Shown here: positions 12,769 through 53,672 of the stretch, in pieces
How positions within the stretch are numbered: position 1 is the first letter of the stretch
Layout: every line of letters starts with the position of its first letter
Made by a program: the position numbers and the translations under genes
Notes under the pieces: model-generated
What the model was told of the DNA's origin: nothing
What the model saw: the letters and a program-made list of their open reading frames with translations, nothing else
Database searches by the model: none
Origin: Hydrogenophaga sp.
Lineage (GTDB): Bacteria > Pseudomonadota > Gammaproteobacteria > Burkholderiales > Burkholderiaceae_C
Direction: 5' to 3'
NCBI RefSeq assembly: GCF_019264445.1
Contig: NZ_JAHVAB010000057.1
Span: 62,001-126,000 of the forward strand
Length of the DNA: 64,000 nt

Positions 12769-12772
12769 CAAG

Positions 12773-33294: not shown

Positions 33295-33312
33295 GGTGGG
33301 GGCCTGCTGAGG

Positions 33313-37141: not shown

Positions 37142-37145
37142 AGAC

Positions 37146-39956
37146 ATGTTCCATCTCCAAAGCCTTGAACTGCTGCATTGGGACTACTGCCAACGACTGA
37201 CCCTGCCATTGGATGGTTCGATCATCACGGTTGCAGGCCCCAACGGCTCAGGTAAGACCACGCTGTTAGATGCCATGCGCACCTTGCTGGGTCTGGATTG
37301 TTCGGGCGGGCGCAGCTACAAAACCTACGCACGCCACGCCAACGCCGACTCCGCCTGGCTGCGCGCTACGGTGGACAACCGAGCCCACGGCCGGCAAAGC
37401 TCCAGTCGCCCTTTTGCTCGCTGCCTTCTCTACAGTGACCAGGTAACGCTGGCCTGCCGAATCGAGCGCAACGGCGGCGACTGGCAACGGCGCTATCACA
37501 TGGCGGATGGAGACATCTCCATCGAGGCACTGACCCAAGTCCCTGAGAAAGACTGGCTGGGCATCGAAAACTGGCGCAAGCGCCTGGAAGGTGCTGGCCT
37601 GTCTCGTGCCATTGCCCGTGTGTTGGCGCTGGAACAAGGTCAAACAGATCGCTTGTGCGAATACTCGCCCAAGGAGCTCCTGCGTCTGGTCTTTGATGTT
37701 TTCGGAGACCAGGAGGTTCTGGACCGCTACGAAGAGGCCCGACGGCACCAAAAAGAAGTGGCCGAAGAGATGGAGATGGCCAAGCGCGAACTGGGTCATG
37801 GGGAGACCCAACTGGCCCAGCTTGAGGCGCGCGTTAACCTATACCGCCAATACCAGAACAAGTTGCGGGAGAAGGAGCGGCTCTGGACCGAAGTTATTCC
37901 CGTTCTCGCATGGAGCGAGGAACGCCTGGACGTGGCCAGTAAGCTTCGCGAGCTTCACCGGCAGCGTGTCCACCATGCCGCCACACTGCGACAACAAGCA
38001 ACAGATCGGGCGCGGCTGTTGCAACTGTCAAGGCAAAAGGAAGAGGCCAAGACAGAAGCGCTGCAGCTGGGCGAAGCCAAAGCAAGCGCACAAGCAGCCC
38101 TGCAGGAGGCGAGCGCCAACGAGCGCCCCGTTGAGCTGTTGGTCAAACATGCCAACGAATTGCTGGAACTGGCCAAGGTTGAAGGGGATGCGGAGCAGTT
38201 GACGTCTCGGCTTCAGACGTTACAGGCGGAGAAGTCACGACTCGACGGCCGCTGGCACGAGGTGAAGTCTGACCGCGATCGGGCACAGGCCTCGCTCGAC
38301 CAGCTGCAAGGCCAGCGGCAAGCGCCACCACCTGAGGATGTGTCGCGCTTTCTGCGCGTGCTTCGACAAGCGGATATCGCCCACCATGTGCTGGCCGATG
38401 TGATCGAAATCACCGACCCGCAGTGGCGTGATGCGGCTGAAGGGGTGCTGCGCAGCTCGCGCTGGGTTGTGGTGCTGAAAGATGCGGGTGACGAAGTCAA
38501 AGCCATGGAGCTGGCTGAGCGTGAGCGATACCGGCACTATGTGGTGGCCCAGGCTGCGGAGGCGCCTAAATCTCCAGACCCGGCGAGCCTGCTGGCAGTG
38601 CTGCGATTTGCAGGCACCGCGCCGACATGGCTATTGCGTCAGCTCGAACAGATTCGGCGTGTGGCCAATCCAGCCGAGGGGACGAAAAGGGGTGGTGAAT
38701 GGATCACGCCCAAAGCATTTTGGCGCGATAGCCGGGGCGGGCGCAGTGTGTGGGTTGACCCGAGCCAGCACCAATTCGGCGCGGCCGCCGTGGCGGCACG
38801 ACGCGAGTCCATCGAGAAGCGTTTGGCGGACCTCGACAAGCAGTTGGGCCAAGTGGCGAAAGACCAGGCAACCAATACCCGTCAGCTAAAGGCAGCCGAA
38901 GATGCAGCCAAGGGCGTCAGCGCCGCTTCTGAGTTGGTCCGTCGCAGCGATGAGTTTGAACAGGCGCGTCAGCAACTGCCACACCTTGTACAGGCGCGTA
39001 AGTCTGCCGCACATCGCTGGCAGACGCTGGATACTGAGCACGGAGCAGCGAATAAGCGGGAATCGGCTCTGGAAGCCGATTACAAGCGCGTCCAGAACGC
39101 GCTGGAGGAAAGTGAACGGAACGCACGGCGGTACGTGGGCGAGTGGGAAGACAAACGCTCTGCATTGCGTCAGCGCTCCAGTGAATCAGCTACAGCAAAG
39201 AAAAAGTTTCCTGCCCGATGGCTTCGAACTGAAGCGCTTGAAGCGCTGCGAAAGACATATCAAAACGCCACTCAGGCGCGGCTGCGCGGCGAAGCCGTAG
39301 AGAAGGATCTGACAGAAGGCTCCTGGGAAACTGATCCAACCGTCGAAGAAAAGCACACTCTGATGGCCGCCACTGTCGAAGGCCAGAAGCAGGTGCTGCA
39401 GCAGCGTGAAGCGAGCAACAACAGCGCGAGCATTGCGGTGAACAACGCTCGCGAGCGCTACATCGACGTGTTGCGGTCCACAGTGCGTCGCTACAGAAAG
39501 AACATCGTCGAACTGGGGCAGTTGGCTGGCGTTGAGGTCAGCGCCGATCTTCCGCACCTAGACAATGACGACACCGTACTCCGCCAAGCCGAACTCAAGG
39601 TCAATTTCAACTTCGACGGCAAGGGCCAGATCGGTCTGAACGACGGAGAGGCCTCGGGCGGACAGCAGGTCATCAAGTCGCTCATTTTGTTGGTCGGCCT
39701 GCTTAAGGATGAGGAAACGCCGGGCGGCTTCGTGTTCATCGACGAACCATTCGCTCACCTCGACGTGAGGAACATTCAGCTGGTGGGCCACTTCCTGAAG
39801 TCCACCCGCGCGCAATACGTCTTGACCACACCGATCACCCACAACGTAGAGGTGTTCGAGCCAGCAGATGTGACTCTGGTGACCTCCAAAAAGCCAGCAG
39901 GTGCACGCTGGGCACCTCCGATTGGCGTGCTGAAGCGACGCGTTGCGCAACCGTGA
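37146..39956 (+). CDS. jetC: Wadjet JetC-like SMC/MukB-type ATPase
   Basis: The 936-residue protein has the SMC plan: Walker A GPNGSGKTT (residues 31-39), an early Q-loop region, two long coiled-coil arms (about 220-400 and 560-750) around a hinge-like middle, and a C-terminal ABC signature (SGGQQ, about 836-840). Walker B follows (FVFIDEPFAHLD, about 862-873). JetC hydrolyses ATP to extrude DNA loops and present closed circular plasmids to JetD. The ATG at 37146 is used; the upstream extension overlaps jetB. Confidence 0.88.
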   Translation: MFHLQSLELLHWDYCQRLTLPLDGSIITVAGPNGSGKTTLLDAMRTLLGLDCSGGRSYKTYARHANADSAWLRATVDNRAHGRQSSSRPFARCLLYSDQVTLACRIERNGGDWQRRYHMADGDISIEALTQVPEKDWLGIENWRKRLEGAGLSRAIARVLALEQGQTDRLCEYSPKELLRLVFDVFGDQEVLDRYEEARRHQKEVAEEMEMAKRELGHGETQLAQLEARVNLYRQYQNKLREKERLWTEVIPVLAWSEERLDVASKLRELHRQRVHHAATLRQQATDRARLLQLSRQKEEAKTEALQLGEAKASAQAALQEASANERPVELLVKHANELLELAKVEGDAEQLTSRLQTLQAEKSRLDGRWHEVKSDRDRAQASLDQLQGQRQAPPPEDVSRFLRVLRQADIAHHVLADVIEITDPQWRDAAEGVLRSSRWVVVLKDAGDEVKAMELAERERYRHYVVAQAAEAPKSPDPASLLAVLRFAGTAPTWLLRQLEQIRRVANPAEGTKRGGEWITPKAFWRDSRGGRSVWVDPSQHQFGAAAVAARRESIEKRLADLDKQLGQVAKDQATNTRQLKAAEDAAKGVSAASELVRRSDEFEQARQQLPHLVQARKSAAHRWQTLDTEHGAANKRESALEADYKRVQNALEESERNARRYVGEWEDKRSALRQRSSESATAKKKFPARWLRTEALEALRKTYQNATQARLRGEAVEKDLTEGSWETDPTVEEKHTLMAATVEGQKQVLQQREASNNSASIAVNNARERYIDVLRSTVRRYRKNIVELGQLAGVEVSADLPHLDNDDTVLRQAELKVNFNFDGKGQIGLNDGEASGGQQVIKSLILLVGLLKDEETPGGFVFIDEPFAHLDVRNIQLVGHFLKSTRAQYVLTTPITHNVEVFEPADVTLVTSKKPAGARWAPPIGVLKRRVAQP

Positions 39957-39967
39957 GGGGTTCACCA

Positions 39968-41188
39968 ATGGAGTGGGTGGATGTTCAGATACGACGAGGT
40001 GTGCGTGAGCGTTCCGCCGCTAAAACAACGCCCTCCGAATTGGGGCTACTGCCGGTTGAGCAACGTGAGCTACTCACCCTCTGGGTACGCAAGGACAACG
40101 CATCCCGTGGACGCGATTCGCTCCTGAAGGAGGGTGGTCAGCATCGCATCGAGCTTTCCGAAGCCCTGTGCGATTGGCTGTTGCGCGAGGGGTGGATCAA
40201 CCGGAAAGAAAAGCTCATAGGCGGTCACTGGCAATGGGATGCATTGACCTGGCGGGACCTTCACACCTTGAAGCAACTGCTTGGTGTGGGTAGTAGAACT
40301 CAGCGCAATGAAAGTCGGGCCTTGTTGTTGGAGGATTTGCGGCAGTGGCTTAGTGGACTTGAAGCGACTGATCTGCCTTCACAACACAGAGGTTTGCTCG
40401 ACGACTTGACCCACGCACTATCCAGTTTGGAACAGGACGCCGCGCAGCGAGTCGAGGTGCTGGAAGCGCGTGATCGTTGGATCAGGGCTTTATATAGCTG
40501 GTGCCTAGACGAGCGACAAGGAACGCGCCGCGACTTCGCGTTGCATGCCGGCGAACACACCAAGTCCATTGGCGCTGGTGACTGGAAATGGCTGGAAGAG
40601 CACTTCGATCTGGAGCGGTACGGAGTGAGCCACTTCACTCCAATGATGTGGGTAGCGGGGCAGGGTGTGTTGCATTGGGACGAGCGCACCGTCGACCTGA
40701 ATGCGGTGAGCTTTCTGGCGCTGCCATTGGATGACGTTCTGCGAGTGAAAGCAGTCACCGCTGCTCCAGCGCATTGGTGGCTCATCGAGAACCGCACCAG
40801 CTTTGAACGACAGGCGCAGCAGCTGGCGGACGGTGTCCTGCTGGCGTGGATGCCCGGGAGGCCTTCTACCGCATGGCTTGCGGCCATTGAGCACTTCGCT
40901 CAATTCGCACCTGCACCCTTGCGGGTAAGTGCAGACGCCGATCCCGCGGGCGTGGACATAGCCTGGGGTATGGGCCGGGTTTGGGAGCGCCTAGGCTTGC
41001 CGTGGGAGCCATTTCAAATGGGGGTTGATGAACTGCGTGCGGCACAACAACCGTGGGCCTTGAACGCTCACGACAAAGCCTTGATCTCCCGACTGTTGGC
41101 GTCGCCGGATCTGCCGCAAGCGTTGCACCAAATCTGCCTGGCTATGCAGCGCGATGGGTTCAAAGCGGAACAGGAGGGCTGGTTGTAG
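39968..41188 (+). CDS. jetD: Wadjet JetD-like Toprim nuclease
   Basis: The 406-residue protein has an N-terminal DUF3322-like helical region and a C-terminal DUF2220/Toprim domain. The Toprim metal site is visible as DADPAGVDIA (about residues 324-333), with an upstream WWLIENRTSFE segment carrying a conserved Glu. JetD cuts DNA held by the JetABC motor. It lies 11 bp after jetC and closes the operon. The gene set and order match Wadjet; I do not assign a Wadjet subtype. Confidence 0.85.
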   Translation: MEWVDVQIRRGVRERSAAKTTPSELGLLPVEQRELLTLWVRKDNASRGRDSLLKEGGQHRIELSEALCDWLLREGWINRKEKLIGGHWQWDALTWRDLHTLKQLLGVGSRTQRNESRALLLEDLRQWLSGLEATDLPSQHRGLLDDLTHALSSLEQDAAQRVEVLEARDRWIRALYSWCLDERQGTRRDFALHAGEHTKSIGAGDWKWLEEHFDLERYGVSHFTPMMWVAGQGVLHWDERTVDLNAVSFLALPLDDVLRVKAVTAAPAHWWLIENRTSFERQAQQLADGVLLAWMPGRPSTAWLAAIEHFAQFAPAPLRVSADADPAGVDIAWGMGRVWERLGLPWEPFQMGVDELRAAQQPWALNAHDKALISRLLASPDLPQALHQICLAMQRDGFKAEQEGWL

Positions 41189-41286
41189 CGCGCAGGCGAC
41201 GCTTGACTGCGCGGCATTCCAGCAATTGAGTGGCGAACGAGCGTCGTTTGGAGTAATCCGCGGCAATCGATCCTGGCACCCCCCTG

Positions 41287-41302
41287 ATCCGCCTGAGCGG
41301 AT
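41287..41302. repeat. Short inverted repeat between convergent jetD and lodB-like genes
   Basis: ATCCGC and GCGGAT pair across a CTGA loop in the 126-bp gap between the two convergent genes. There is no strong T-run on either side, so it is at best a weak bidirectional terminator. Confidence 0.35.
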
Positions 41303-41314
41303 ACCCAAAATAGC

Positions 41315-42445
41315 TCAATCGTTATCGTCGATAGCGCTTTCCAAAACTTCGAACTTGTGGCGACGCGTCCAAAACACAGCATCTGGCCAGCGCCTCTCAA
41401 GAGCGTAGAAATGGCAGCGTTGCAGGAGGTAGGCTGCAAGAATGACCTGCACTCTTGAATCCCAATCTGCGAGTGACTCTTTCGTTCCCCGAATGTAGGC
41501 AAGCACGGATGCGGCAGCTTCTTGTGCCGTTACTAGTGCATGAAGAAGACCTTGCGAAGCCAATGGATCGAAGGCCAAGCACGCGTCGCCTACCGCAAGC
41601 CAGTCAAGACCAGATGCCGGCGTCGCCCACTGCTCATGGGCTGGCGCAACGTGCAGCGCCCCGGATGCTACGCATCCAGAGATTCGCGAGCTGATCAGTC
41701 TCGTGTCGCGTGCTAGATCTAGCAATTGCCTTGCGTTGCGCGGCCGTCCGCAATCAAGATCGCTATCTGTATGCCAAGCAACCACGCACGAAGAGTTCGA
41801 TACGTCCGCGCTGTACCACCAACCGTATGGTGCGGATTCGATGAGAGTCGCCCCAATGTGTTCTTGAGTGCATTCATCGAACCAAGCGTAGAAGCAGACC
41901 ATCTTGCTTCGGCGCTTGGCTCTTGCTCCCACCCGGCGGACAACACTGGCTGATCGCCCTGAAGCGTCGACTATCACTCGACTGTAGATAACCTGTAGGC
42001 CGGATGCAGTTTCCACTTCGCATCGCCAGCGTCGGGATTTGTCTCCCTCACAGTAGTGCAGTCTGCGCAGCCATGCAGAGTCGCCATATTCGACGCCACT
42101 ACTTAGAGCCGAATCGAACAGCATGCTGTCAAAGCGGTCCCTGTCTAGATGCCAACCAGCACCGTCAGGATCGAGGATCGAGTCCCTTTCAAACACATCT
42201 GGCCCACCCCAGACCGAGCGCCGAAACCACGACCGCCGATGGCCAGCCGCTTCGAACTCTTCCCACATGCGCAAGTCTGTCAGGATCCTCCTTGCGGCAG
42301 CGGGTAGAGATTCGCCGATTCGGCGGCAGCTCTGAGTCGGTCTACCTATGAGTCCGACTCGGCAATGCCGCGCAAGCTCCTTGGCTAGGACCGAGCCAGA
42401 TGGCCCGGTGCCGACCACGAGGACGTCGAAGTCCTTGAGTTGCAT
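41315..42445 (-). CDS. LodB-like FAD-dependent monooxygenase, predicted quinone-cofactor maturase
   Basis: The 376-residue flavoprotein has an N-terminal Rossmann motif (VVGTGPSGSVLAKELA, about residues 10-25), a DASGRSASVVRR segment (about 165-176) and a C-terminal GDACLAFDPLASQG motif (about 288-301). These are features of the tryptophan-halogenase/p-hydroxybenzoate-hydroxylase-like group to which LodB belongs. LodB hydroxylates the tryptophan that becomes cysteine tryptophylquinone (CTQ) in LodA. The gene lies 40 bp after the lodA-like gene on the same strand, which strongly supports this role. A general flavin oxygenase is the alternative. Confidence 0.75.
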   Translation of the reverse strand: MQLKDFDVLVVGTGPSGSVLAKELARHCRVGLIGRPTQSCRRIGESLPAAARRILTDLRMWEEFEAAGHRRSWFRRSVWGGPDVFERDSILDPDGAGWHLDRDRFDSMLFDSALSSGVEYGDSAWLRRLHYCEGDKSRRWRCEVETASGLQVIYSRVIVDASGRSASVVRRVGARAKRRSKMVCFYAWFDECTQEHIGATLIESAPYGWWYSADVSNSSCVVAWHTDSDLDCGRPRNARQLLDLARDTRLISSRISGCVASGALHVAPAHEQWATPASGLDWLAVGDACLAFDPLASQGLLHALVTAQEAAASVLAYIRGTKESLADWDSRVQVILAAYLLQRCHFYALERRWPDAVFWTRRHKFEVLESAIDDND

Positions 42446-42485
42446 TACGGGTAGCTAAGAGATCACCAACGCGGTGGGGTCTTCA

Positions 42486-44375
42486 TCATTGCTCGGAGCC
42501 ACCAATGGCTCTGAATGTCCGCAGAGAGGCTTCGTTCTCGGAATTGAAGGGTTCGATATGATCTTCCAACGGTGCGTGAGCTGCGCCAGCCGCGGGATCG
42601 GGTGCAACTCGGTTCTCTACCTGCATAACCGGGGGAAGGTCTTTGTCGCCAGGAATCCCGGGACGGGACTCGATGATGCCCATATCAGCAAAGTTCGAGA
42701 TCATCCGGTTGATCTGGCTTTCGTATCCGCCAGGGCCTAGCGTCCTAAACCACGACTCTCTCTTTGCGAAGGCTGAGATCCTTTCCTCCCGGCCTAGGCC
42801 TGGATCGATTGCTCTCTGATAGGCCTCTTCTGTTAGGACTTGGTTCGGCACGCGCGCAGGCCAGAACGTGGGGAGGTACGGGTCATATCGCGGGCCGTAC
42901 CCAGCGTAGTAGCCGCCACGGCAGCTCGCCGTATCTGTCTGCCACGGTACCGCCATCCATCGCGTGAGGTCTCCAGCCGTTTGCGCATACAACGGCCCAT
43001 CGATCGATAGCGCGGACTCCTGAGTTAGCTGTGCACCGTACTTTGCCGTGCTTGCTGCCCCGGCGGACGCTTCTCGAATTCGAAACGGAGCACGAAACAA
43101 GGTGGCATGGCGCATTGGCCAAGTGAGTTCACACCCTGGATGAAAGGCGTCAGCAAGACAGTTGTCCATTGCAGCTTCGTCAAGCATCGTTGGCTGCAAC
43201 GAAAGCGGCGTCTTCTCCAAGTCCACAGGTGGCAAAACTGTTGGATCCCAATCATTGGTGAAGCGCCCTGCAGCCCAATGTTCGAGCATTCTCAGTTGGG
43301 TCCTCGTGAGTGTTGAATGCTGCCTTGGGGTGTTTGCCGGAGGCACGTCCATAGCATCGCCATACAGCCAGGGCCATGGCTGCGGAGATGTGCCGTCGCG
43401 CTCATACCGTCGGAACGAATTCGCTACCTGCTGGCGAAGCTCGGCCCATGTATCTCCCGGACTGCTGAGCTTAGCAATCCACTCCAAGTTGTCAGCGCAA
43501 GCCGTACCTCCCCAGCCAAACTGGGCTGCGAAGCCCTTGTTCGCCCATTGCAGGCTTGTCTGCCGCGAGAGGATGGGAAGAATGTGCTCGGTGAATGAGA
43601 CCGAACCGGGGAACGACATCATTCCTGCTTGGACGTAGACATCCTCGAGCAAGTCTTTCATCGTTCGTACCGACTTCATTTCAGGGCCATAGTTGGGTGG
43701 AGCTACCACCACCCAAGCCGATTCAACCGGGATTGAGACCCCATTGCTGGTAACGCGTGCTCGTACTGGCCCGTCCGATGTGTCGTCGTACCAGCCATCG
43801 TTGTTTGCGAAAGTGGTCGCCGGCGTTCCATCTACTGACGCCGATACCCCACGCCCACCGAGTACCAGAAGACGTCCATGATCGTCCGTGCGAACCTCCC
43901 CGAGGTATACCGATTTGCCTGCGAAAGTTCCGCTGTCAAAGCGATAGGCAGCGCCGTGTTGGCCAACACCGGATATGCGTCGCAAGCCTGGTCGGATCGC
44001 GAGCCTATCGCGGTCTAATATGTTCGGATTTCGAAGGAGACTCGGGGCTGCAGACACGGCTTCAGGAACATCCAAAGCGATCTGGAACTGGTACCAGGCG
44101 GATTTCGAGTTCGCCAGCTCAACCTCCCATTCGACGGTCGCATTAGAAGCAGTAATCTCCTGTACCACTTGCCCCGTCGCGTTATACCCATAGATCCTGA
44201 AGCGTGCAGCCTCCCGCTTGAGCGCCCCTGACGAATCTCGCAGGAATCCACGAGGCATGGGTGGAGGGTGACGAACTTCGGGCGCGACAACGAAGTCATC
44301 GAGACTGTTTCCGACTCGTGCAACGCCAATCCCAGGATGGATGGATGCACGAACGATTGTCAAATCTAGAGCCAT
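42486..44375 (-). CDS. LodA-like quinoprotein amine/amino-acid oxidase
   Basis: The 629-residue protein begins with the family motif IHPGIGVARVGNS (about residues 10-22). LodA of Marinomonas is an L-lysine epsilon-oxidase with a CTQ cofactor from Cys516 and Trp581; relatives oxidise other amino acids or modified substrates. Here Cys415 (HPGCELTW) and Trp478 (VPWQTD) are 63 residues apart and fit those positions; Trp505 (FWPARVPNQV) lies in another conserved patch. The ATG at 44375 puts the family motif near the N-terminus; the longer frame to 44426 is less likely. No signal peptide is seen. Substrate cannot be told from sequence. Confidence 0.8.
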   Translation of the reverse strand: MALDLTIVRASIHPGIGVARVGNSLDDFVVAPEVRHPPPMPRGFLRDSSGALKREAARFRIYGYNATGQVVQEITASNATVEWEVELANSKSAWYQFQIALDVPEAVSAAPSLLRNPNILDRDRLAIRPGLRRISGVGQHGAAYRFDSGTFAGKSVYLGEVRTDDHGRLLVLGGRGVSASVDGTPATTFANNDGWYDDTSDGPVRARVTSNGVSIPVESAWVVVAPPNYGPEMKSVRTMKDLLEDVYVQAGMMSFPGSVSFTEHILPILSRQTSLQWANKGFAAQFGWGGTACADNLEWIAKLSSPGDTWAELRQQVANSFRRYERDGTSPQPWPWLYGDAMDVPPANTPRQHSTLTRTQLRMLEHWAAGRFTNDWDPTVLPPVDLEKTPLSLQPTMLDEAAMDNCLADAFHPGCELTWPMRHATLFRAPFRIREASAGAASTAKYGAQLTQESALSIDGPLYAQTAGDLTRWMAVPWQTDTASCRGGYYAGYGPRYDPYLPTFWPARVPNQVLTEEAYQRAIDPGLGREERISAFAKRESWFRTLGPGGYESQINRMISNFADMGIIESRPGIPGDKDLPPVMQVENRVAPDPAAGAAHAPLEDHIEPFNSENEASLRTFRAIGGSEQ

Positions 44376-44436
44376 GTTATCGCTCCCGAAACGCCACACA
44401 CTCACAAATTGCGTGAAGCATACCAATCGGCGGTGC

Positions 44437-44465
44437 TTGCCGGAGCTGTGCCTTAAAACTATACT
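44437..44465 (+). promoter_or_regulatory. Probable sigma-70 promoter for the peptide-radical SAM genes
   Basis: TTGCCG (44437-44442) and TATACT (44460-44465) are separated by 17 bp, close to the -35/-10 consensus. The pair lies 87 bp upstream of the 65-residue peptide start, within the divergent gap to the lodA-like gene. Confidence 0.55.
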
Positions 44466-44552
44466 GAGTCTGCCACGGGTTCGGCGGGAGGAGCGAGGCC
44501 AAAGCAGGACTTGTGTGGCTCATTCAATCAACGTGATCGAAAGGAAGAAGCT

Positions 44553-44750
44553 ATGTCATGGCCTAGAGATGGACATATGGCTCTTGTGCTCGAGGTGAAA
44601 GCGCTGAAGAAGGAGTTGCTGGCACTCAAGAAGAGCTACGCGGCACTCGCCAAAGAGGTGGCTTCAATCAAGACTAAGCTTGCAAAAGCTCCTGCAAAGA
44701 CTGCACCTGCAAAGAAGAAGCCTGCCGCCAAGAAGGTTACGAAGAGCTAG
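44553..44750 (+). CDS. 65-residue lysine-rich peptide, possible substrate or precursor
   Basis: The ATG at 44553 follows a purine-rich ribosome-binding site (AAGGAAGAAG). The peptide has a short N-terminus with Trp3 and His8, a heptad-like helix (about residues 13-45, many Leu/Ala/Lys) and a C-terminal tail of Lys/Ala/Pro repeats like histone-H1-type proteins. Sixteen of 65 residues are lysine; there is no cysteine. It sits 23 bp upstream of the radical SAM gene and divergent to the LodA-like oxidase. It may be a modified peptide, or simply a small nucleic-acid-binding protein; no family was recognised. Confidence 0.6.
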   Translation: MSWPRDGHMALVLEVKALKKELLALKKSYAALAKEVASIKTKLAKAPAKTAPAKKKPAAKKVTKS

Positions 44751-44773
44751 TACCTAAGAGCTGGGCGGCTGCC

Positions 44774-45931
44774 GTGAAATCGTTGAACGCCCAGCTAGGT
44801 CTCTTTGATGTGGACCTGAACGTCACAGCGCGATGTAACCTGCGTTGTGACTTCTGTTCCGTTCCCGTCAAGACGGTAACAGAGCGATGTGATGAGTTGA
44901 GCTTGGACGAGATCAGAGATGTCCTCGCACAGCTTGATCGTTTGGGCACACAGGTAGTTCGAGTAGTCGGAGGCGAGCCATTTGTTCGTCGCGACATCGA
45001 GGGCATCCTGCAGGCTCTTGGAGGTCATGGCTTCTTCAGCTCGGTGCTAACTAACGCTACAGTGCTGAAGGCCCGACATCTCGACGTCGTTCGCGAATGC
45101 GGAGTGGACGCGATATCCTTTAGTGTTGACGGGCACACCGCCGAGCTGCATGACGCTTCACGCGGGATGCCGCGTGCTTTCGAGCGGCTGACAGCAATGG
45201 TGGAGAAGTGCAACAGCCTCGACATACGTCATCGCATGATGACCGCGGTCACATCTGCAACATTGCCTCACTTGAAAGCGCTTTGCCAGTTTGCGTCACA
45301 GCAGGGGTTTGAATCCCTCAGCTTCATCCTGTTAGGTATGGGCGGGGCGGCGAACTCAGCCCCTACGAGATTCCCTACCTATGTGGAATGGTCTGCAGCC
45401 ATTGTGGATCTCACGCGCTTCCTCGCAACCGATCCCTTGCCTGCCCTCTCCGTGTCGTTATTGTTTCCACATGAAGATCCGACACCAGTCGAGCTGCAAG
45501 AGCCGCTGGAGCGCGCTGGCTTACTAGAGCAGATGCAGTCGGTGTGGCGGATTGCACCGGATTCGAATGCACGTTGGGGACGAAGTATGTGCCTAGCTGG
45601 TCGAAGAAGCATTGCGATCATGCCCAATGGGGACGTTTTCGGGTGCGACTTAATGCGAGAGTTGCCCGATATGTGCGCCGGCAATGTGCGCCGACAGTCT
45701 ATCGAGTCGATCTTCAAACGCTCACCGGTTTTACTGGCCCTGCGAGACAGCCCGGAAGTTCAGGGGTGCGGTTCGCCAAGCGCAAAAGACTGGAGCTTCT
45801 CGTGTGGTCAGTGCCGGGCAGGTCTCCGACATATGCAAGCGCAAGCCCGTCAAGCGCGGCCAGGTGTTAGCGTTTCCGTCCACGCACCATTGCCAAGATT
45901 AACGCGTCGAACCATCGACCTCCCTCCTTAA
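44774..45931 (+). CDS. Radical SAM/SPASM-domain enzyme
   Basis: The 385-residue protein has the radical SAM cluster motif CNLRCDFC (Cys21, 25 and 28). A conserved VGGEPFVRRDI segment (about 56-66) follows, with a C-terminal SPASM-like domain rich in cysteines: a CLAG, IAIMPNGDVFGCDLM, MCAGNVR and VQGCGSP...SCGQC series (about 272-357). SPASM enzymes often modify ribosomal peptides or mature quinone cofactors. The GTG start at 44774 keeps the motif near the N-terminus and lies 23 bp after the lysine-rich peptide gene. Its 3' end overlaps the opposite-strand GNAT gene by 65 bp. Confidence 0.82.
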   Translation: MKSLNAQLGLFDVDLNVTARCNLRCDFCSVPVKTVTERCDELSLDEIRDVLAQLDRLGTQVVRVVGGEPFVRRDIEGILQALGGHGFFSSVLTNATVLKARHLDVVRECGVDAISFSVDGHTAELHDASRGMPRAFERLTAMVEKCNSLDIRHRMMTAVTSATLPHLKALCQFASQQGFESLSFILLGMGGAANSAPTRFPTYVEWSAAIVDLTRFLATDPLPALSVSLLFPHEDPTPVELQEPLERAGLLEQMQSVWRIAPDSNARWGRSMCLAGRRSIAIMPNGDVFGCDLMRELPDMCAGNVRRQSIESIFKRSPVLLALRDSPEVQGCGSPSAKDWSFSCGQCRAGLRHMQAQARQARPGVSVSVHAPLPRLTRRTIDLPP

Positions 45932-46424
45932 ATCGACCTGCGCTCGTTCCTTCCTCCTGAAACCCAATAGATTTGCACATGTGAATCGACATGGCATTTT
46001 CGGGACGAGCTTGCCCTTCTATGCGGTGCAGATGGAGCCTGCGAAACCCGAACCGAATCAATCCGCGTAAAGCTTCGCTTGCATACCCTTGGCGCCGATA
46101 TGCAGTGTGTACTATGGCGCCGATACTAGCCATCTGTCGGTTGCCGCGGAGAACGTCGAAGAGCATCACTTCCCCGATGAACTCCCCTGTGCGCGCTACG
46201 AAGACGCCGAATCGATAGCTCCGATCCTCTAGCATTTGATCCAATCGGTAGTCGGTCATGCGCCCGAACTCCGCTCGATCAGACAAGGACACGGCAAGTG
46301 AGCCACCTTCCATCTCCGCCTTCGAAAGCTGCGATCGCCCACGCGTGCGCATACAAGCCTCGTAATCCGTCGGCTCAAGCGGCCTCACCCAGAGTCTCTT
46401 CGTTTTGAATTCGAACTCAAGCAT
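45867..46424 (-). CDS. GNAT-family N-acetyltransferase (RimJ/RimL-like)
   Basis: The 185-residue protein has the RimJ/RimL-type N-terminus (TKRLWVRPLEPTDYEACM, about residues 8-25). The acetyl-CoA site follows (IVHTAYRRQGYASEALRGLI, about 107-126) and then RPENAMSIHMCKSIGFQEEG. It should acetylate an amine on a small molecule or protein N-terminus. It is divergent from the deiminase-like gene, with starts about 17 bp apart, and convergent with the radical SAM gene. Confidence 0.8.
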   Translation of the reverse strand: MLEFEFKTKRLWVRPLEPTDYEACMRTRGRSQLSKAEMEGGSLAVSLSDRAEFGRMTDYRLDQMLEDRSYRFGVFVARTGEFIGEVMLFDVLRGNRQMASIGAIVHTAYRRQGYASEALRGLIRFGFRRLHLHRIEGQARPENAMSIHMCKSIGFQEEGTSAGRFKEGGRWFDALILAMVRGRKR

Positions 46425-46440
46425 GCGAGGAATTCTAGTT

Positions 46441-47319
46441 ATGGCTGGTCAGTGGAACACTGCTCCGGCGGCGGCGTCTCGACAGGCTTCGCTTCGGCTG
46501 TTACTTGCTCGAGTTGACGTCGACCTTAGGTTTCTCTATCCCGCTGTCTGCGCGAGCGCCCCACCCATTGCCCTACATGCAGCGGAAAAACTGGAGCAGC
46601 TTGACAACAGCAGTGTGCTTCGCATTCCGGCCAGGAACGACTTGGAAGCATACCGCCTGCGTTGGCCCAAGGACGCGGTCCAAGCCTACGAAGGGAGCGT
46701 TGCAATAGCGCGGTCCGCTGCTGCCCGACAAATTGCTCAACGATGCGGAACGCAGAAAGTCTGTGTCTCGCCTTGGTGCGAGGGTGGAATGGTCGTTAAG
46801 GTAGGGCAGTCTCTTCTGGTGTCTTCTGAACTATTGGCCAAGCCTGATCTCCCACCAGCACCCGGAAGTTACAGAATAATCTCAATACCTGCGCCGCTCG
46901 GGCGTTCGCGACGCGGACCAGCACACATTGATCTGGACTGTGCTGTTGCACGGACGCAGAGTGGTAGCACGCTGTTGCTTGTTTCACCGCGACTAGTGGA
47001 GATCGGCCGCGCCGATGTCGAAGCAGCGTCTCGCGCGCTCGGTGCCGAGCTGTTCGTCGCGCCACTGAACGAGGTTCGTAGACGGGCACTCAACTTTGTT
47101 TACCTTCACCCGGGGTCTGTCCTAATGCCAGCCGGATGTCTGCAAACACAGACGCTTCTTGCGAGCCGTCTTGGGGTGGAAAACGTTTTGACCGTTCGCA
47201 TCGATCGAAGCTTCAACTACAACGGGGGTTTCGGTGGGCTGGGCTGCATGTCTACTTTTCTCCCCCGAGAGATCTTGGTTGACGGGGGATCAAGAACTCC
47301 AAGCTCAGCTAAGCGATGA
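46441..47319 (+). CDS. Agmatine/arginine deiminase-like guanidine-modifying enzyme
   Basis: The 292-residue protein shows the pentein/guanidine-modifying pattern: an Asp-containing RWPKDAVQAYEG region (about residues 76-87), CEGGM (about 112-116), HIDLD with catalytic-type His162, and a C-terminal NGGFGGLGCMS with catalytic-type Cys269. Members hydrolyse or transfer the guanidine group of arginine, agmatine or peptidyl arginine. It is shorter than agmatine deiminase (about 360). Substrate is unknown; peptidyl-arginine deiminase-like activity on a peptide is possible in this context. The 3' end overlaps the opposite-strand dioxygenase gene by 103 bp. Confidence 0.65.
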   Translation: MAGQWNTAPAAASRQASLRLLLARVDVDLRFLYPAVCASAPPIALHAAEKLEQLDNSSVLRIPARNDLEAYRLRWPKDAVQAYEGSVAIARSAAARQIAQRCGTQKVCVSPWCEGGMVVKVGQSLLVSSELLAKPDLPPAPGSYRIISIPAPLGRSRRGPAHIDLDCAVARTQSGSTLLLVSPRLVEIGRADVEAASRALGAELFVAPLNEVRRRALNFVYLHPGSVLMPAGCLQTQTLLASRLGVENVLTVRIDRSFNYNGGFGGLGCMSTFLPREILVDGGSRTPSSAKR

Positions 47320-48059
47320 ATCCAGCGACTCTGTTCCGAATGCTCTGACGCTCTCCACGAAAGAGGGTACATGCGAACCCCAGCCTCGCGAGCAGCGCGG
47401 TGATTCATCTGCATTTGTGCGTAGAAGGCACGTTCCTCCATTGGATTGCGTGGGTCGGCATAGTAGTTGATCTCAACCATCCGCCGCCCCTGTCGCCCGT
47501 TAAACGAAGCGTGCCAAAGAGGGTGTGCGAAGGCGATAACATCGCCAGGATTCGTGTGTAACACCTGCGCCGGCAGTTCACTACCGGTGAGGCCAAACGA
47601 GTCAAGGGGGGCATAGCACATGAGTCGGTCGCTGCGACCTGCTTGCCGATGAGATCCCGGAAGTACACGCAAGGCGCCATTGCGGGCATCAAGTGCATCG
47701 AGGTACATCAAAAACTTCACGCCCTTGTAGGGAAGGCTTAGGTTGTCGCTGTGCCACTGGGTGTCACCGACATGGCTAGTCCCAGCCACTTGAACGCAAA
47801 TTGTGGACCTGCCGAGCAAGATGCTGGAGACTTCACACAGACGTCGATCAATTGCTAGCGAACCTAACGCCGGACTGTCTTCATCCATCAACAGGCGAAT
47901 CAAGCGACGCTGTTTGCTCGCTCCAGAACGACTCGCCAACCCCATGCACTCGTCAAACTCCGTTGATAGCAGCGCCATCTCTTGCGGTGAGAATAGATTG
48001 CGGAACAATGCATAGCCAAAGGCGCTGAAGAATCGGCGATATTGCTGCTGTGTCTTCAT
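47217..48059 (-). CDS. Phytanoyl-CoA dioxygenase (PhyH)-like Fe(II)/2-oxoglutarate oxygenase
   Basis: The 280-residue protein has the PhyH fold signatures: HSD iron ligands in WHSDNLSLPYKGVK (about residues 102-115), LRVLPGSHRQAG (about 129-140), and a distal His in FAHPLWHASFNGRQGRRM (about 175-192), whose arginines could bind 2-oxoglutarate. Such enzymes hydroxylate small molecules or amino acids. It is the last gene of the alternating-strand cluster. Confidence 0.78.
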   Translation of the reverse strand: MKTQQQYRRFFSAFGYALFRNLFSPQEMALLSTEFDECMGLASRSGASKQRRLIRLLMDEDSPALGSLAIDRRLCEVSSILLGRSTICVQVAGTSHVGDTQWHSDNLSLPYKGVKFLMYLDALDARNGALRVLPGSHRQAGRSDRLMCYAPLDSFGLTGSELPAQVLHTNPGDVIAFAHPLWHASFNGRQGRRMVEINYYADPRNPMEERAFYAQMQMNHRAAREAGVRMYPLSWRASEHSEQSRWIHRLAELGVLDPPSTKISRGRKVDMQPSPPKPPL

Positions 48060-48208
48060 GGGAATCTCGAAATTTCCGATGTCATCCTAGCTCAGCCCGA
48101 GCGCCTTGTCCGCCCAACAGACCCGGGAGTGCGTTTGCTCCGACGTGGGCATCTGCCAAAAAGTGATCTGGAAGGTTCGATCAATGATTCGCATCGACCG
48201 CATCCAGC

Positions 48209-48931
48209 CTACAGAATTCCGTAGAGACGGGCGATGCGGACGGCTGAACGCCGGTCAGGCACCCCCAGCTTGGCATTGAGCCGCTGAAACCGACAGTCGA
48301 TGGTTTTGGCCTCCACATTCATGGTGGCGCCGATGACTTTGCTGCTGTGGCCGGCAGCCTCATGACGCAAGAGGTGCAGGTCGACTTCCGTAAGGCGCAC
48401 TCCTTGGAGTAACTCTTCACGCATGGACTTTGCGATCCACTGATGCAGCTCCATGGCGAGCGCACGCGCCAGCACCCGAACTTGTGGGTAGTTCTCGCCG
48501 CCAAACCTGCCTGAATCAGCTGATCCCAGGCATAGGACGCCCACCCGGGAAAGGCCAACGGGGCTAGGGGCAGGGGCAACCAGGGTAGAGGAGAAGCTGT
48601 GCTCCGCGGCTGCGCGGATGAAGGCATTTTCTTCGGTTGATGAGCAGACCAGGTCGCTGGAGCGGATTGGTTCTGCGTCGGTTGACGCATGCCGTAGCCA
48701 GGGATCGTGTTCGAACCTCCGTTGAGACGCGTAGTCCGCAGCCCACGATGGATCGCAAGCCCACAGGGATCGAAGGGAGGTTCGCGTTGCATCGTCTCGA
48801 AGGCAACTCAGGAAGACGCCGGCATCAGCACCAAGACCTTCCACTGCCTCGTGAAACAGGCTTATCACTTCTCCAGTGGACCCCGCCTCTGCGATCAGCG
48901 GAAGCAGCTGTAAAACGCGAATGTCGTTCAT
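48209..48931 (-). CDS. LuxR-family regulator with autoinducer-binding-like domain
   Basis: The 240-residue protein has an N-terminal domain (about 10-165) of the autoinducer-binding type, containing WAADYASQRRFEHDPWLRHA. The C-terminal LuxR HTH (about 175-240) contains LTEVDLHLLRHEAAGHSSKVIGATMNV and a recognition-helix region VEAKTIDCRFQRLNAKLGV. No LuxI synthase is present in the window, so it is a LuxR solo here. It follows the 145-residue unknown gene by 34 bp. It could control the 41-48 kb cluster or the desaturase genes. Confidence 0.78.
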   Translation of the reverse strand: MNDIRVLQLLPLIAEAGSTGEVISLFHEAVEGLGADAGVFLSCLRDDATRTSLRSLWACDPSWAADYASQRRFEHDPWLRHASTDAEPIRSSDLVCSSTEENAFIRAAAEHSFSSTLVAPAPSPVGLSRVGVLCLGSADSGRFGGENYPQVRVLARALAMELHQWIAKSMREELLQGVRLTEVDLHLLRHEAAGHSSKVIGATMNVEAKTIDCRFQRLNAKLGVPDRRSAVRIARLYGIL

Positions 48932-48965
48932 GGCTGCATGCTCGCTCGACCGATATCCGCTGCCT

Positions 48966-49403
48966 TCAGCGATAGTCTGCGAATGCTGCATGACCTGCGC
49001 GAACCAGCTTGCTGAATAGCAGGCCATCTTCAAAGCGAAGTGGCTCAACCGCACACCAGTGGTCGAAGGTCTTCACGTCACCAAACACCATCGTCTGCAC
49101 CAGCCGCATGCCCACACCTTGACGTTGGGTGCGCTCCATCAACAGACCGTAGTTGGTGGCGCGCAGCAGGATGGATACAGCGCCATCAACGGTGGCCAGC
49201 AACGTATCTCCCGGCGCTGCAATTGCAGCATTTCGGTTCCGAGTCAAAACGGAAGAATCAGCACGCTTTGCGACCAGCGCCGAGCGCTTGGCACCCAGAG
49301 GGCGAGCGGGCGCGTCGATGGGATCGATGCGGCGTTTGACCGAGGTTCTGGACAACACGGTTGGTGCTAATGCCATCACCATGGGAGTCTGAAAATTGTT
49401 CAT
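48966..49403 (-). CDS. Unknown 145-residue protein upstream of luxR
   Basis: The ATG at 49403 gives a protein with a basic N-terminal half (KRRIDPIDAPARPLGAKRSALVAKR) and a hydrophobic-charged C-terminal half (ATVDGAVSILLRATNYGLLMERT and MVFGDVKTFDHWCAVEPLRFEDGLLFS). It is not LuxI-like: it lacks the conserved residues and is too short. Tight linkage to luxR suggests a shared function. No family recognised. Confidence 0.55.
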   Translation of the reverse strand: MNNFQTPMVMALAPTVLSRTSVKRRIDPIDAPARPLGAKRSALVAKRADSSVLTRNRNAAIAAPGDTLLATVDGAVSILLRATNYGLLMERTQRQGVGMRLVQTMVFGDVKTFDHWCAVEPLRFEDGLLFSKLVRAGHAAFADYR

Positions 49404-49441
49404 CTCCGCCCCTGCAGATCGGGTTGACCGACAGGCCACGC

Positions 49442-49453
49442 GGTGCTGGCACC
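49442..49453. promoter_or_regulatory. Palindrome upstream of the luxR operon, candidate operator
   Basis: GGTGC and GCACC flank a TG spacer about 39 bp upstream of the 49403 start codon, where an operator could lie. It is short and could be chance; it does not match the canonical 20-bp lux box. Confidence 0.3.
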
Positions 49454-49603
49454 GAGTGACCCCCGCTTCAAGTCTCAACTGACTGGATAGAGGGGAGGGT
49501 AGACAAACGCGTCGCGCGATGTCAAAGGAAATCCGGTCAGGGTGATCAAATCTGCAGCTGGGTCAATCCCGCTAAACGACGACTACCCAATGCACGCGGC
49601 TCG

Positions 49604-50017
49604 TCAAATCACTGCGGGTGCGCTGCTTTGGCTCAAAGCCTCCAGCAACATAAACGCATCGTCGGCCCGATTCACGGGGATGAACAGGTGATCGTGGTGA
49701 AAGGCGGCGACCGCATTGCAAGGGATGCCTGCTCTGGCCAGGGCTGTGGCGATCATGGCCAGAAAGCCGATGGCTTCCAGCGACGAATGCACGGTGAGCG
49801 TGATGAGTTTGGCCTCGAAGATGTAGGGCACTTTGGCCTGAACTGCTTGGGAGCGTTCCACGATGGCCGTCAGTCCTTCTGATTCCCTGAAGGTGCAGAT
49901 GGGAGAGAAGTCAACAGGGAGGCAGTGATCCTGGAAGGTGCAGTAGACGTAGGTCTCTGGCCGAAGCTCAGGGGCCATCAATTTCTGCAGCCGAACTTGG
50001 TCTTTTTCTCCGCTCAT
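49604..50017 (-). CDS. ACT-domain protein
   Basis: The 137-residue protein has the two-part ACT arrangement of the DUF2241/ACT_7 type. LRPETYVYCTFQ and ICTFRESEGLTAIVER lie in the first half. KLITLTVHSSLEAIGFLAMIATALARAGIPCNAVAAFHHDHLFIPV lies in the second. ACT domains bind amino acids and regulate metabolism. The ATG at 50017 is used; the longer frame has no family similarity. It is divergent from the desaturase gene with a 266-bp gap. Confidence 0.78.
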   Translation of the reverse strand: MSGEKDQVRLQKLMAPELRPETYVYCTFQDHCLPVDFSPICTFRESEGLTAIVERSQAVQAKVPYIFEAKLITLTVHSSLEAIGFLAMIATALARAGIPCNAVAAFHHDHLFIPVNRADDAFMLLEALSQSSAPAVI

Positions 50018-50283
50018 CCGATGGTCTCCTGCGCACGGCAATGGTGTTGGCTTTCGGTACTGATTATGGGCGGCTGGCGTTCGTCCGGCACATGCACAAG
50101 TGCGCAGTTGCGCCACCGAATGGGTCGGTTTAGCTGAATTGACGCACGGCCAAAGTTCCTAAACTCCGGCGTCCAAGAGGGATCTGCTGCTACCGTCTGG
50201 CGCAGCCTGGAACAGTCTCCCGCCAACCACTGCTTTGACCGCCGGGCATCACACGGCAAAGCACAGTGAGAAGGAGTGTCCAC

Positions 50284-51228
50284 ATGGCACCGACTTCCGA
50301 AGTCCTCGTGGACATGGCCGATCTTCGAGACCAATTGAGGCAGCAGGGCAGCCCCTACAGCGAATTGTTCAAGCTGCGTCCTGCGCGGGTGCTGCTCGAT
50401 ATTGCGTTCGATTGGGCCTTGATTCTGGGCGCAGTCGCCGCTGTCGTTTGGATCGATGCCGTGCTTGCGCCGTTGTCCGCGCTGGTGATCGCCAATCGGC
50501 AAAGGGCACTGGGCAACATCCTGCACGACGCGGGTCACCGGAATATCTTGCGAGAAAAAGGTCGGAACGATCTTGTCGCTCGTGCACTGGTGGCGCCAAT
50601 GCTGTTTGCCAGCCTCTCCCGATATCGGGAAACACATTTCCAGCACCACCTGGAGTTGGGCCGCACGCAAGGTGACCCCGACCTGATACCGGGGCAGGAA
50701 AATCTGCCATCGCTTTGGGTGGTCAGTTTCACCAGGTGCTTGCTCTCATGGCCTACCTGGCTAGGCTCACTGAGCGGTCACCTGTTCCTGAAGGAGGTCA
50801 GCGTGCGGAGCAAAGCCTTCATCTTGGGATGGTGGGTAGGCCTCCTCGGTGTCCTGGCCCTGTTGGGTGGTGGCGATTTTGCGTTGGCTTTTGTGTTGCT
50901 ATGGCTAATTGCGCGGGCGACGTTCTTCCATTGCATCACCACCTTTCGCGAGATGTGCGATCACTTCGGACTGCAGCCGGGTGGGGTGTTTGGCTTCACT
51001 CGTGACATGGTCTGTCACGGCCCCTGGCGCTGGACCATTCATCCGCGCAACAACGGCTACCACCTCACCCACCATCTGTTGCCAGCGGTTCCGTACTACC
51101 GACTTCCCGAAGCTCACGCACTGCTGTGTCAGTTGCCCATGTTCGAGGATCGATCACACATCTGCCGCGCCTACTTTCGCACCGCGAATGCGGTGATAGC
51201 CGATTGGCAGAGCAGGGCGGCGAAGTGA
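50284..51228 (+). CDS. Membrane fatty-acid desaturase/hydroxylase-like enzyme
   Basis: The 314-residue integral membrane protein has three histidine boxes: HDAGH (about residues 80-84), HFQHH (about 118-122) and HLTHH (about 260-264). These bind the diiron centre of desaturases and related hydroxylases. Hydrophobic helices lie between the boxes (about 40-75 and 180-215). A strong Shine-Dalgarno (AAGGAG at 50271) precedes the ATG at 50284. The stop overlaps the transporter start (ATGA), so the two are co-translated. Substrate could be a lipid or a small organic molecule. Confidence 0.78.
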   Translation: MAPTSEVLVDMADLRDQLRQQGSPYSELFKLRPARVLLDIAFDWALILGAVAAVVWIDAVLAPLSALVIANRQRALGNILHDAGHRNILREKGRNDLVARALVAPMLFASLSRYRETHFQHHLELGRTQGDPDLIPGQENLPSLWVVSFTRCLLSWPTWLGSLSGHLFLKEVSVRSKAFILGWWVGLLGVLALLGGGDFALAFVLLWLIARATFFHCITTFREMCDHFGLQPGGVFGFTRDMVCHGPWRWTIHPRNNGYHLTHHLLPAVPYYRLPEAHALLCQLPMFEDRSHICRAYFRTANAVIADWQSRAAK

Positions 51229-52490
51229 TGGATCGCGTCCTGAGCAGCGTCCAGATCGCGGCGTTGTTGGTGTCGGCCAGCTACGGCATCGGCTTCTTGT
51301 TCGGCTCTGGGGAGCTGGCCCTGACCCACGGGATGGCAGGAAGCATCTACGGCATTGCCACTGGGTTCGGCATGCTCGCACTTGCACTGGTGGCAAAGCC
51401 TTTGTGGAGGTCTGGCTTGTCAGTGTGGGACTTGTTTGGGCGTGCCTACGGCACACAACTGCGCGGCTTGGTGGCGGCGCTGTCTCTGGTCTGGATGGCA
51501 GGTGTGCTCGCCGCACAGATTCATGGCGGAGTGGCTGTCGCCCGCTTGCTGGGAGTACCCGATCCGCATGGACTGATCGTCGTGCTGGGGCTGATCTACG
51601 CTGCAGCACAGATGAGCTTGCGCATCGCGTCGGGCGTCTTTGCTGGATGTCTCCTGTTGAGCGGGTTGGTTCTGGTGTACGCGCTCGTAGCTGCTGATGG
51701 GCTGGCACTCTACCTGGGGGCAGTACCTAGATTTGTGGAGGATCTGGATACCTTCAGTCCAACACAACTGGGCACCATGTCGCTCGCCGTTTGCCTACTG
51801 GTTGTCACGGGGGCCGACTATCACCAGTTCGTGATGTCTGGTCGAACCGCCCGGAACGCCGTGGTCGGGTGCGCCATGGCCGGACTGGCGCTGATTCTCA
51901 TTGGGTTCTTGCCAGCGGCTGTTGTGATGGCCATGCAGTCAGGCGGTGTGCTGGCGGACATGCCAGATGGCAAGCAAGTCATCCCCTGGGCGTTGTCCCA
52001 CGCCGTAGGCGGCCTTGCTGGGGGACTGGGAGCCGGCATGTTGGTCGCACTGTCTCTTGCTGCGCTGGGTTCGGGTGCGGCGATTCTGCGGGCCATGGCA
52101 TCCGCGATGAGTACGACCCCGACGGGCAAGAGCCGACCCAGGCTTGCTTCGGCCGCAGCACTCTTCATCGGCGCTGCACTTGCCTCGCGAGATCAGGGCA
52201 TCGTAGAAACCATGGTGTCGGTCAACATCATTTACCTGGCCAGCGTCGGTGTTTGCTTTGCTGCGCTGCTGGCAGATATCAGCCTCACGCACCAGCGTGC
52301 CAGGGCCACCGTTGTCGCGGGGCTTGTCGTGTCTGGATGCGTTTATGCAGCAAGTTGGCTGGGTCTGTTGGCCCCGCAGGCTGACGCTCTCTCGCTGGGC
52401 GCCGGACTTGCAGCATCAATGGGTGTTGCAGTCGGCTTTGGCCTTGTCGCTGGCCACCAGCGGGCTGACGTGACGAAGTCTTGTCGCTGA
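51228..52490 (+). CDS. LeuT-fold transporter (sodium:solute symporter-like)
   Basis: The 420-residue protein has about 12 hydrophobic helices and an N-terminal SASYGIGFLFGSGELALTHG motif (about residues 16-35) typical of sodium:solute/NCS1-type LeuT-fold carriers. It likely moves a small organic substrate across the inner membrane. Coupled to the desaturase gene by a 4-bp overlap. Its 3' end overlaps the convergent LysR gene by 75 bp. Confidence 0.65.
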   Translation: MDRVLSSVQIAALLVSASYGIGFLFGSGELALTHGMAGSIYGIATGFGMLALALVAKPLWRSGLSVWDLFGRAYGTQLRGLVAALSLVWMAGVLAAQIHGGVAVARLLGVPDPHGLIVVLGLIYAAAQMSLRIASGVFAGCLLLSGLVLVYALVAADGLALYLGAVPRFVEDLDTFSPTQLGTMSLAVCLLVVTGADYHQFVMSGRTARNAVVGCAMAGLALILIGFLPAAVVMAMQSGGVLADMPDGKQVIPWALSHAVGGLAGGLGAGMLVALSLAALGSGAAILRAMASAMSTTPTGKSRPRLASAAALFIGAALASRDQGIVETMVSVNIIYLASVGVCFAALLADISLTHQRARATVVAGLVVSGCVYAASWLGLLAPQADALSLGAGLAASMGVAVGFGLVAGHQRADVTKSCR

Positions 52491-53426: not shown

Positions 53427-53672
53427 GGGTATCTCCCGATGTCTGGCTGACGCGGTTGCCAACCTGCGCCATTTAGGGGGTCAAGCAGAAAATGTGTCGA
53501 TGGCTTTCAGGTGTCAATCGCTTCCGACAAGTTACGAGCGGTATCGAGTATTTGCCGATTCAAGACGGAAAGGCCAAATGGTGGTGCACAAAAATTACAC
53601 TCGGTTGCCGTGCGGACTGAATCGTTTAGCGCGAAGTGGCACTCTTGAGCGACCAGATGAAGGAGGTGCTCC

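Follow-up and report, generated by a model that had tools for sequence, protein, structure and literature searches.

In a 64,000-nucleotide stretch of Hydrogenophaga sp. DNA (assembly GCF_019264445.1), which we call the window and which covers positions 62001-126000 of the 140,263 bases of contig NZ_JAHVAB010000057.1, seven consecutive genes encode a LodA-type oxidase with the residues that form a cysteine tryptophylquinone (CTQ) cofactor, its LodB-type flavoprotein, a Lys-rich small protein, a radical S-adenosylmethionine (SAM) enzyme with a SPASM domain, a GNAT acetyltransferase, a deiminase-like protein and a PhyH-type oxygenase. We hold with moderate confidence that this block combines two functions, a self-contained oxidase that produces hydrogen peroxide and an orphan peptide/radical SAM locus that was transferred together with it. 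The block of ~6.7 kb would be foreign DNA, flanked by Wadjet-like defence genes and by a LuxR-type regulator, inside an integrated conjugative-type island. In the LodA/LodB family, LodB makes the CTQ and oxidation by LodA releases hydrogen peroxide. By analogy, LodB with flavin adenine dinucleotide (FAD) would build the cofactor in the LodA of the block, and LodA would oxidise an amino acid or an amine (GoxA-like, possibly glycine) to give hydrogen peroxide and ammonia. In the other half, the most likely substrate of the radical SAM/SPASM enzyme is the 65-residue peptide encoded 23 bp upstream, with the PhyH oxygenase, the acetyltransferase and the deiminase-like enzyme as candidates for tailoring. 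The two halves may have moved together, perhaps since both serve competition, and would probably not form one pathway.

Composition and gene order of the block

The seven open reading frames (ORFs) named in a preliminary description of this DNA, among them the Lys-rich one, were all found again (Table 1). Pfam and NCBIfam profiles bore out the identities proposed there for LodA, LodB, the radical SAM/SPASM enzyme and the GNAT acetyltransferase, and Pfam that of the PhyH protein; the deiminase was recovered by motif only. The GC content at third codon positions (GC3) was 0.546-0.602 in the seven genes and 0.614-0.856 in 30 other, hand-picked genes of the window, so that seven consecutive genes hold the seven lowest values of the 37 compared. 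The shared low GC3 argues for one donor, and the seven genes probably came in as one block. The LuxR-type gene just outside the block has a GC3 of 0.642.

The strand order across the block is - - + + - + -, which rules out a single operon. The ends of the radical SAM and GNAT genes overlap convergently by 65 bp and those of the deiminase-like and PhyH genes by 103 bp. LodB and LodA are separated by 40 bp, and the peptide ORF lies on the same strand as the radical SAM ORF that follows it. The open frame of LodA continues past its ATG to a TTG at 44426. One promoter-like site was found in 41100-50300, where 3.4 would be expected by chance, and thus there is no evidence that it functions. With a codon table made from other window genes, the known or presumed coding frame did not rank first of six for LodB, the radical SAM enzyme and the deiminase-like protein, and for the last of these two alternative frames scored higher; since the test fails also for LodB and the radical SAM enzyme, it is uninformative on frames in the block.

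Table 1 Genes of the block, adjoining features and further ORFs of low GC3, with positions in the window.
Feature	Position	Strand	Basis or remark
LodB/GoxB-like FAD maturase, 376 aa	41315-42445	-	GoxB, LodB and QhpG models, all below cut-off; directly downstream of LodA
LodA/GoxA-family CTQ oxidase, 629 aa	42486-44375	-	Pfam, NCBIfam, PDB; ATG at 44375
Divergent gap between LodA and peptide genes, 177 bp	44376-44552	.	Promoter-like site 44437-44465 facing the peptide gene
Lys/Ala-rich small protein, 65 aa, possible precursor peptide	44553-44750	+	No family above cut-off
Radical SAM/SPASM enzyme, 385 aa	44774-45931	+	PF04055 and PF13186; Cys positions
GNAT acetyltransferase, 185 aa	45867-46424	-	PF13302, 76.1 bits
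Probable divergent guanidine-modifying (deiminase-like) enzyme, 292 aa	46441-47319	+	Four motifs; no profile match
PhyH-type Fe(II)/2-oxoglutarate oxygenase, 280 aa	47217-48059	-	PF05721, 46 bits
LuxR-type regulator with autoinducer-binding domain	48209-48937	-	PF03472, 36.6 bits; PF00196, 25.2 bits
Low-GC3 ORFs outside the block	17747-18946, 29203-29703, 29669-30301, 33043-33672, 53425-53829

The LodA/LodB pair and its neighbourhoods in other genomes

The LodA protein contains both a LodA_N and a LodA_C domain (PF17990, 274.5 bits, cut-off 26.3; PF18417, 130.2 bits, cut-off 25), and its matches in the PDB are GoxA (6byw) and L-lysine 6-oxidase (2ymw, 3weu). Its scores against the NCBIfam models of GoxA (NF038173, 414.1 bits, cut-off 750) and LodA (169.4 bits, cut-off 600) are under the equivalog cut-offs and, therefore, its substrate cannot be named. 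LodB scored 226 bits with the GoxB model NF038174 and 208.2 bits with the LodB model NF038171, both under the cut-off of 400, and 154.1 bits, again sub-cut-off, with the QhpG model. A pattern scan of the genome_contigs collection yielded 363 LodA relatives, the best 80 of which were used. D481, C485 and W542 are conserved in all 80 aligned relatives; the patterns used to find these relatives take in the residues immediately preceding D481. The upstream Asp, D481 here, presumably plays the role of D512 in LodA. C485 and W542 correspond to C516 and W581 of LodA, as given in PMC4417212, a match made by motif and spacing and not by direct alignment. A LodB homologue adjoins LodA in 78 of the 80 relatives, the remaining two loci stopping at or just past LodA, which agrees with the statement of Campillo-Brocal et al. 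2015 (PMC4417212) that a lodB-like gene was close to lodA in all genomes except one. Judged by profiles, residues and pairing, the two genes are an ordinary conserved pair. With other LodA/GoxA systems they share both domains, the CTQ-forming Cys and Trp and the LodB-type flavoprotein directly downstream; they differ from them in that LodA is under the equivalog cut-offs and in the other neighbouring genes. The hydrogen peroxide by-product that had been thought possible is likely, given what is known of the family (PMC4417212). In the same taxonomic family LodA is rare (one of 149 other genomes at 1e-40).

Genes of the block were searched for around the 80 LodA relatives by tblastn at 1e-5. 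The peptide, deiminase-like and PhyH genes were found at none of the 80 loci, a GNAT relative at two (L065, L071) and a radical SAM relative, of a different family, at one (L077); at least 4 kb of sequence was present in 69 of the 80 upstream of LodA, the side of the partner genes here, and in 72 downstream. According to a rough estimate, one radical SAM gene among 80 loci is no more than chance. The preliminary description had itself named a lack of conserved co-occurrence as evidence against its reading; for LodA with the radical SAM enzyme, this lack is what we found, and a recurring combination of the two is not supported. At the five closest LodA loci (67-70% identity; Delftia three times, Acidovorax and Ramlibacter), LodB was detected and none of the other five block genes was, within 10 kb on each side and at the same threshold. 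A two-sequence profile of the radical SAM enzyme added one weak match only (L031, E 5.4e-4). Whole-genome searches covered 47 of the 80 LodA-bearing genomes, and 32 of them had a radical SAM match at 1e-10; since the best of these (2.7e-24) was 30% identical, there is no close relative of the enzyme among the 47. Annotation from the PLSDB gene table, which is incomplete, covered six of the 36 plasmid records with a LodA relative and listed no radical SAM gene within 7 kb. One of the six, from Paraburkholderia caribensis, has a phytanoyl-CoA dioxygenase gene: on plasmid 2 of this species (L130, NZ_CP013105.1), LodA and LodB lie near a methyltransferase gene, two octopine/nopaline dehydrogenase genes and the dioxygenase gene, another unusual LodA neighbourhood.

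The one locus with a radical SAM gene, L077 (positions 1-5779), is contig CALKXT010000113.1 of a Sulfitobacter metagenome-assembled genome (MAG). LodA and LodB come first, then a DUF1843-like peptide and a radical SAM/SPASM enzyme, an ORF of 72 residues that contains four Cys, and lastly three further peptides of similar type. Two of these four peptides were compared with DUF1843 and scored 17.3 and 16.0 bits, under the cut-off of 23.3. The radical SAM gene is on the LodB side, unlike in the window, where it is on the LodA side, and just 78 bases of sequence lie upstream of the LodA match. The enzyme groups with the maturases of GDL-motif peptides (TIGR03913, 501.7 bits, cut-off 591.75); a search at 1e-40 in a sample of 57 further genomes of its genus found no match. 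L077 thus looks like a fusion of a LodA locus with one for GDL-peptide maturation, and LodA is placed beside a peptide/radical SAM arrangement at least once independently of the window.

The peptide, the neighbouring radical SAM enzyme and the putative tailoring enzymes

The 65-residue peptide contains 16 Lys and 14 Ala, no Cys, a single Trp near its start and R5 as the only Arg; AAGGAAG stands five bases before its ATG. It belongs to no recognised precursor family of Pfam or NCBIfam, DUF1843 included, and was found only in its own genome (one of 230), with no match in 229 other genomes of the family at 1e-3; this and the following searches for orphan proteins covered samples of the larger groups, except for the search of the genus, and the scan of the whole genome_contigs collection covered LodA only. 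The radical SAM enzyme scored over the cut-offs with PF04055 (88.6 bits) and the SPASM domain PF13186 (31.5 bits). A CxxxCxxC motif at 21-28 and six Cys between 273 and 347 give it the core features of radical SAM/SPASM peptide maturases, namely this motif and a C-terminal Cys-rich SPASM domain. Outside its own genome, no match was found in 149 family genomes at 1e-40 or in 397 phylum genomes at 1e-25. A tblastn search of plasmids hit 390 records, with 25-29% identity in the 20 matches listed, and viral contigs gave nine loci with weak and mostly short matches. The same plasmid search, with the low-complexity filter on, gave no match for the peptide, the deiminase-like protein or PhyH, and the latter two had no relative among the viral contigs scanned.

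The best NCBIfam match of the radical SAM enzyme was WgkB (NF050035, residues 13-351), a maturase of radical SAM-modified, ribosomally synthesised and post-translationally modified peptides. This full-length match and the small peptide upstream are shared with WgkB-type systems; membership was rejected at 135.8 of the required 650 bits, and the peptide has no WGK motif, which we take to be the peptide motif of WgkB systems. Membership in TIGR03913 was rejected as well (92.6 of 591.75 bits, and a peptide without DUF1843). With the GDL-peptide maturases of this family the locus has in common that a gene for a small peptide immediately precedes the radical SAM/SPASM gene; in L077 such a pair is in addition beside LodA and LodB. 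In another MAG (L116), a related radical SAM enzyme over the cut-off of TIGR03913 (640.9 bits) directly follows a DUF1843 peptide, also over its cut-off, which makes a small peptide just upstream of such an enzyme a known arrangement.

Maturation of quinohemoprotein amine dehydrogenase involves the radical SAM enzyme QhpD, the flavoprotein QhpG and QhpC, the gamma-subunit peptide, which carries the CTQ and whose thioether cross-links need Cys. There, the radical SAM enzyme is tied to CTQ only through the assembly of the dehydrogenase. We take this qhp system to be the nearest known link of the two. Both bring together a CTQ enzyme, a small protein, a radical SAM/SPASM enzyme and a LodB-like flavoprotein with similarity to QhpG; in contrast, the window peptide has no Cys and the CTQ residues sit in LodA itself. 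A qhp-like system was dropped in view of the missing Cys. In quinohemoprotein amine dehydrogenase the flavoprotein is required for CTQ formation, according to PMC7876137.

The deiminase-like protein had no match in Pfam at E 10, in NCBIfam at 0.01 or in the PDB at E 1. Its motifs WPKD (75-78), EGG (114-116), HID (162-164) and CMS (269-271) follow the pattern [FWY]x[RK]D, EGG, HxD, C[MIV][ST], ordered and roughly spaced as in a true arginine deiminase (L096), which comes from the genome of a relative. With spacing ranges that had been chosen after both sequences were seen, not one shuffle out of 20,000 matched this pattern, and of the 2,482 ORFs of at least 200 residues that were scanned, only L096 and two copies of the window gene itself did. 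In a pairwise alignment with L096, 245 of 1,000 shuffles scored as high. Since the spacing was set post hoc and the alignment is no better than chance, the identity is motif evidence only, and the protein is at best a very divergent guanidine-modifying enzyme; the catalytic Cys, His-x-Asp/Glu and Glu/Asp motifs of that superfamily are present in order. Compared with arginine deiminases and dimethylarginine dimethylaminohydrolases, the motifs (F/W/Y)x(R/K)D, EGG, HxD and CM(S/T) agree in order and roughly in spacing, and significant sequence or profile similarity is missing; profiles of both enzymes found nothing in the genome that carries the block. An AlphaFold2 prediction made without an alignment reached a mean pLDDT (predicted local distance difference test) of 34.5, too low to assess the alpha/beta-propeller fold of the superfamily. 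No match outside its own genome was found in 66 genomes of the genus at 1e-3 or in 398 of the family at 1e-4. PhyH carries HSD at 103-105 and H183 and matches ectoine hydroxylase weakly in the PDB (4mhr, E 0.0021); outside its own genome it had one weak match (29%, 2.5e-13) in 359 genomes of the class at 1e-8.

Island setting and weighing of the readings

The contig carries thrS, pheT and ccoN, and therefore the block is chromosomal; the plasmid location proposed before was rejected on this ground. Ahead of the window lie ccoN, thrS, pheT and tRNA-Pro(ggg), the tRNA gene being followed by genes for RadC and DUF932. The window continues with StbB, a relaxase domain, HerA and a type III restriction system, VirB4-, VirB6-, VirB10-, VirB11- and VirD4-like transfer genes, Wadjet-like JetC and JetD, the block, the LuxR-type regulator, KfrA, a heavy-metal ATPase and an IS5 transposase. 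The region looks like an integrated conjugative-type island, situated downstream of thrS-pheT and after tRNA-Pro(ggg) (L125, positions 9732-13000, and window 1-64000). A second copy of the tRNA-Pro end, and with it the right island end, was found neither in the window nor in the last 14 kb of the contig. No integrase was identified inside the window, where no systematic search was made; one is present on the contig at ~7 kb, on the far side of thrS/pheT. Megablast of 18000-42900 against plasmids gave no match, and that of 41200-64000 gave 21 records, of which the 12 listed match only from 58008 onward.

Further segments of the island were noted. By PADLOC, the four-gene set at 35044-41188 includes an SMC/MukB-like JetC (79.9 bits) and a JetD-like protein (58.2 bits), and its first two genes matched no model of that collection at 1e-5; it may be a divergent Wadjet-type system adjoining the block. 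An HKD/Snf2 helicase, HerA and a type III restriction-modification pair make up a defence segment at 3789-17855. The stretch 58008-59282 is 86.9% identical to the Variovorax plasmid NZ_LR594663.1, in features named DNA-binding protein and integrase. At 50284-51228, a protein with an FA_desaturase fold has the arginine hydroxylase GntB as its best NCBIfam match (118.5 bits, cut-off 380); its gene overlaps a permease-like gene without a Pfam match (50284-52490).

Several observations weigh against a jointly transferred block of two functions. The 30 genes to which the block was compared were picked by hand, and five of 52 mechanically picked ORFs outside it have a GC3 of 0.600 or less, so that the block is not uniquely low; two of the five overlie the TrbL gene, and that at 17747-18946 goes up to 0.638 when counted from an inner ATG. 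Similar GC3 can also stem from several arrivals from similar donors, and no clear flanking repeat at the block edges was among the repeats listed. No known precursor is similar to the peptide, whose Lys/Ala/Pro tail might be a plain nucleic-acid-binding tail. The divergent gap between LodA and the peptide gene and the nearby LuxR gene make co-regulation possible, which would argue for one pathway.

Indeed, a joint role of the seven genes is possible, given their shared composition. In such a single pathway the radical SAM enzyme, PhyH, the acetyltransferase and the deiminase-like enzyme, for which R5 is the only Arg, would mature the peptide, and LodA would deaminate lysine side chains, either within the peptide or on a released residue, under quorum-sensing control through LuxR. 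The low GC3 common to all seven genes, the divergent gap and the adjacent LuxR gene fit this reading, as does the unrelated locus L077, in which a radical SAM/SPASM gene and four DUF1843-like peptides, one before and three after it, come behind LodA and LodB. Also, a DUF1842/DUF1843/GDL radical SAM operon in Chromobacterium is induced by quorum sensing, as stated in PMC12114271. We nevertheless regard one pathway as unlikely, albeit far from negligible: only one of the 80 LodA loci has such a radical SAM gene nearby, and there it is on the LodB side, of the TIGR03913 type and without a relative at 1e-40 in the other genomes sampled from its genus; the strands alternate; and LodA-family enzymes of established activity are described as amino-acid oxidases in PMC4417212. 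A more specific form, a new kind of quorum-regulated locus for a peptide natural product in which the radical SAM enzyme and the CTQ oxidase act on the same Lys-rich peptide, converting lysines to aldehydes, with Arg deimination, hydroxylation and acetylation, has in our view only a slim chance.

At the other extreme, LodA/LodB and the other genes could be chance neighbours that reached an island hot spot independently and share neither origin nor function. The alternating orientations and convergent overlaps, the lack of a conserved neighbourhood at LodA loci, the mosaic of defence, transfer and metabolic genes in the island and the few other ORFs of equally low GC3 would be expected then, but seven consecutive genes would hardly hold the seven lowest GC3 values of 37, which makes this explanation rather improbable. 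Alternatively, the radical SAM enzyme, PhyH, the deiminase-like protein and the acetyltransferase might make an amino-acid-derived, arginine-like metabolite, to which the GntB-like desaturase-fold protein might contribute, and the 65-residue ORF would be an unrelated basic protein. This is consistent with a peptide outside all recognised precursor families and with GntB as the best match of the desaturase-fold protein, the GC3 of whose gene, however, differs from that of the block (0.702); moreover, the radical SAM gene directly follows the peptide ORF, whose composition is that of the block, and we give such a small-molecule pathway little credence. An oxidase co-transferred with a separate peptide locus thus stays the reading that we prefer.

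To our knowledge, there is no earlier case of a LodA-type CTQ oxidase that helps to make a radical-SAM-matured peptide product, and a locus with LodA, a radical SAM enzyme and a peptide was not among the matches listed in a search of the open-access literature, which is not proof of absence. If the two halves cooperate, the block would be the first known instance of a LodA-type CTQ oxidase in the synthesis of a radical-SAM-matured peptide. If they do not, it still holds a peptide paired with a radical SAM enzyme and a divergent guanidine-type enzyme, for none of which the sampled genomes gave a close relative, together with a LodA-family oxidase, its substrate unassigned by profile, on a mobile island.

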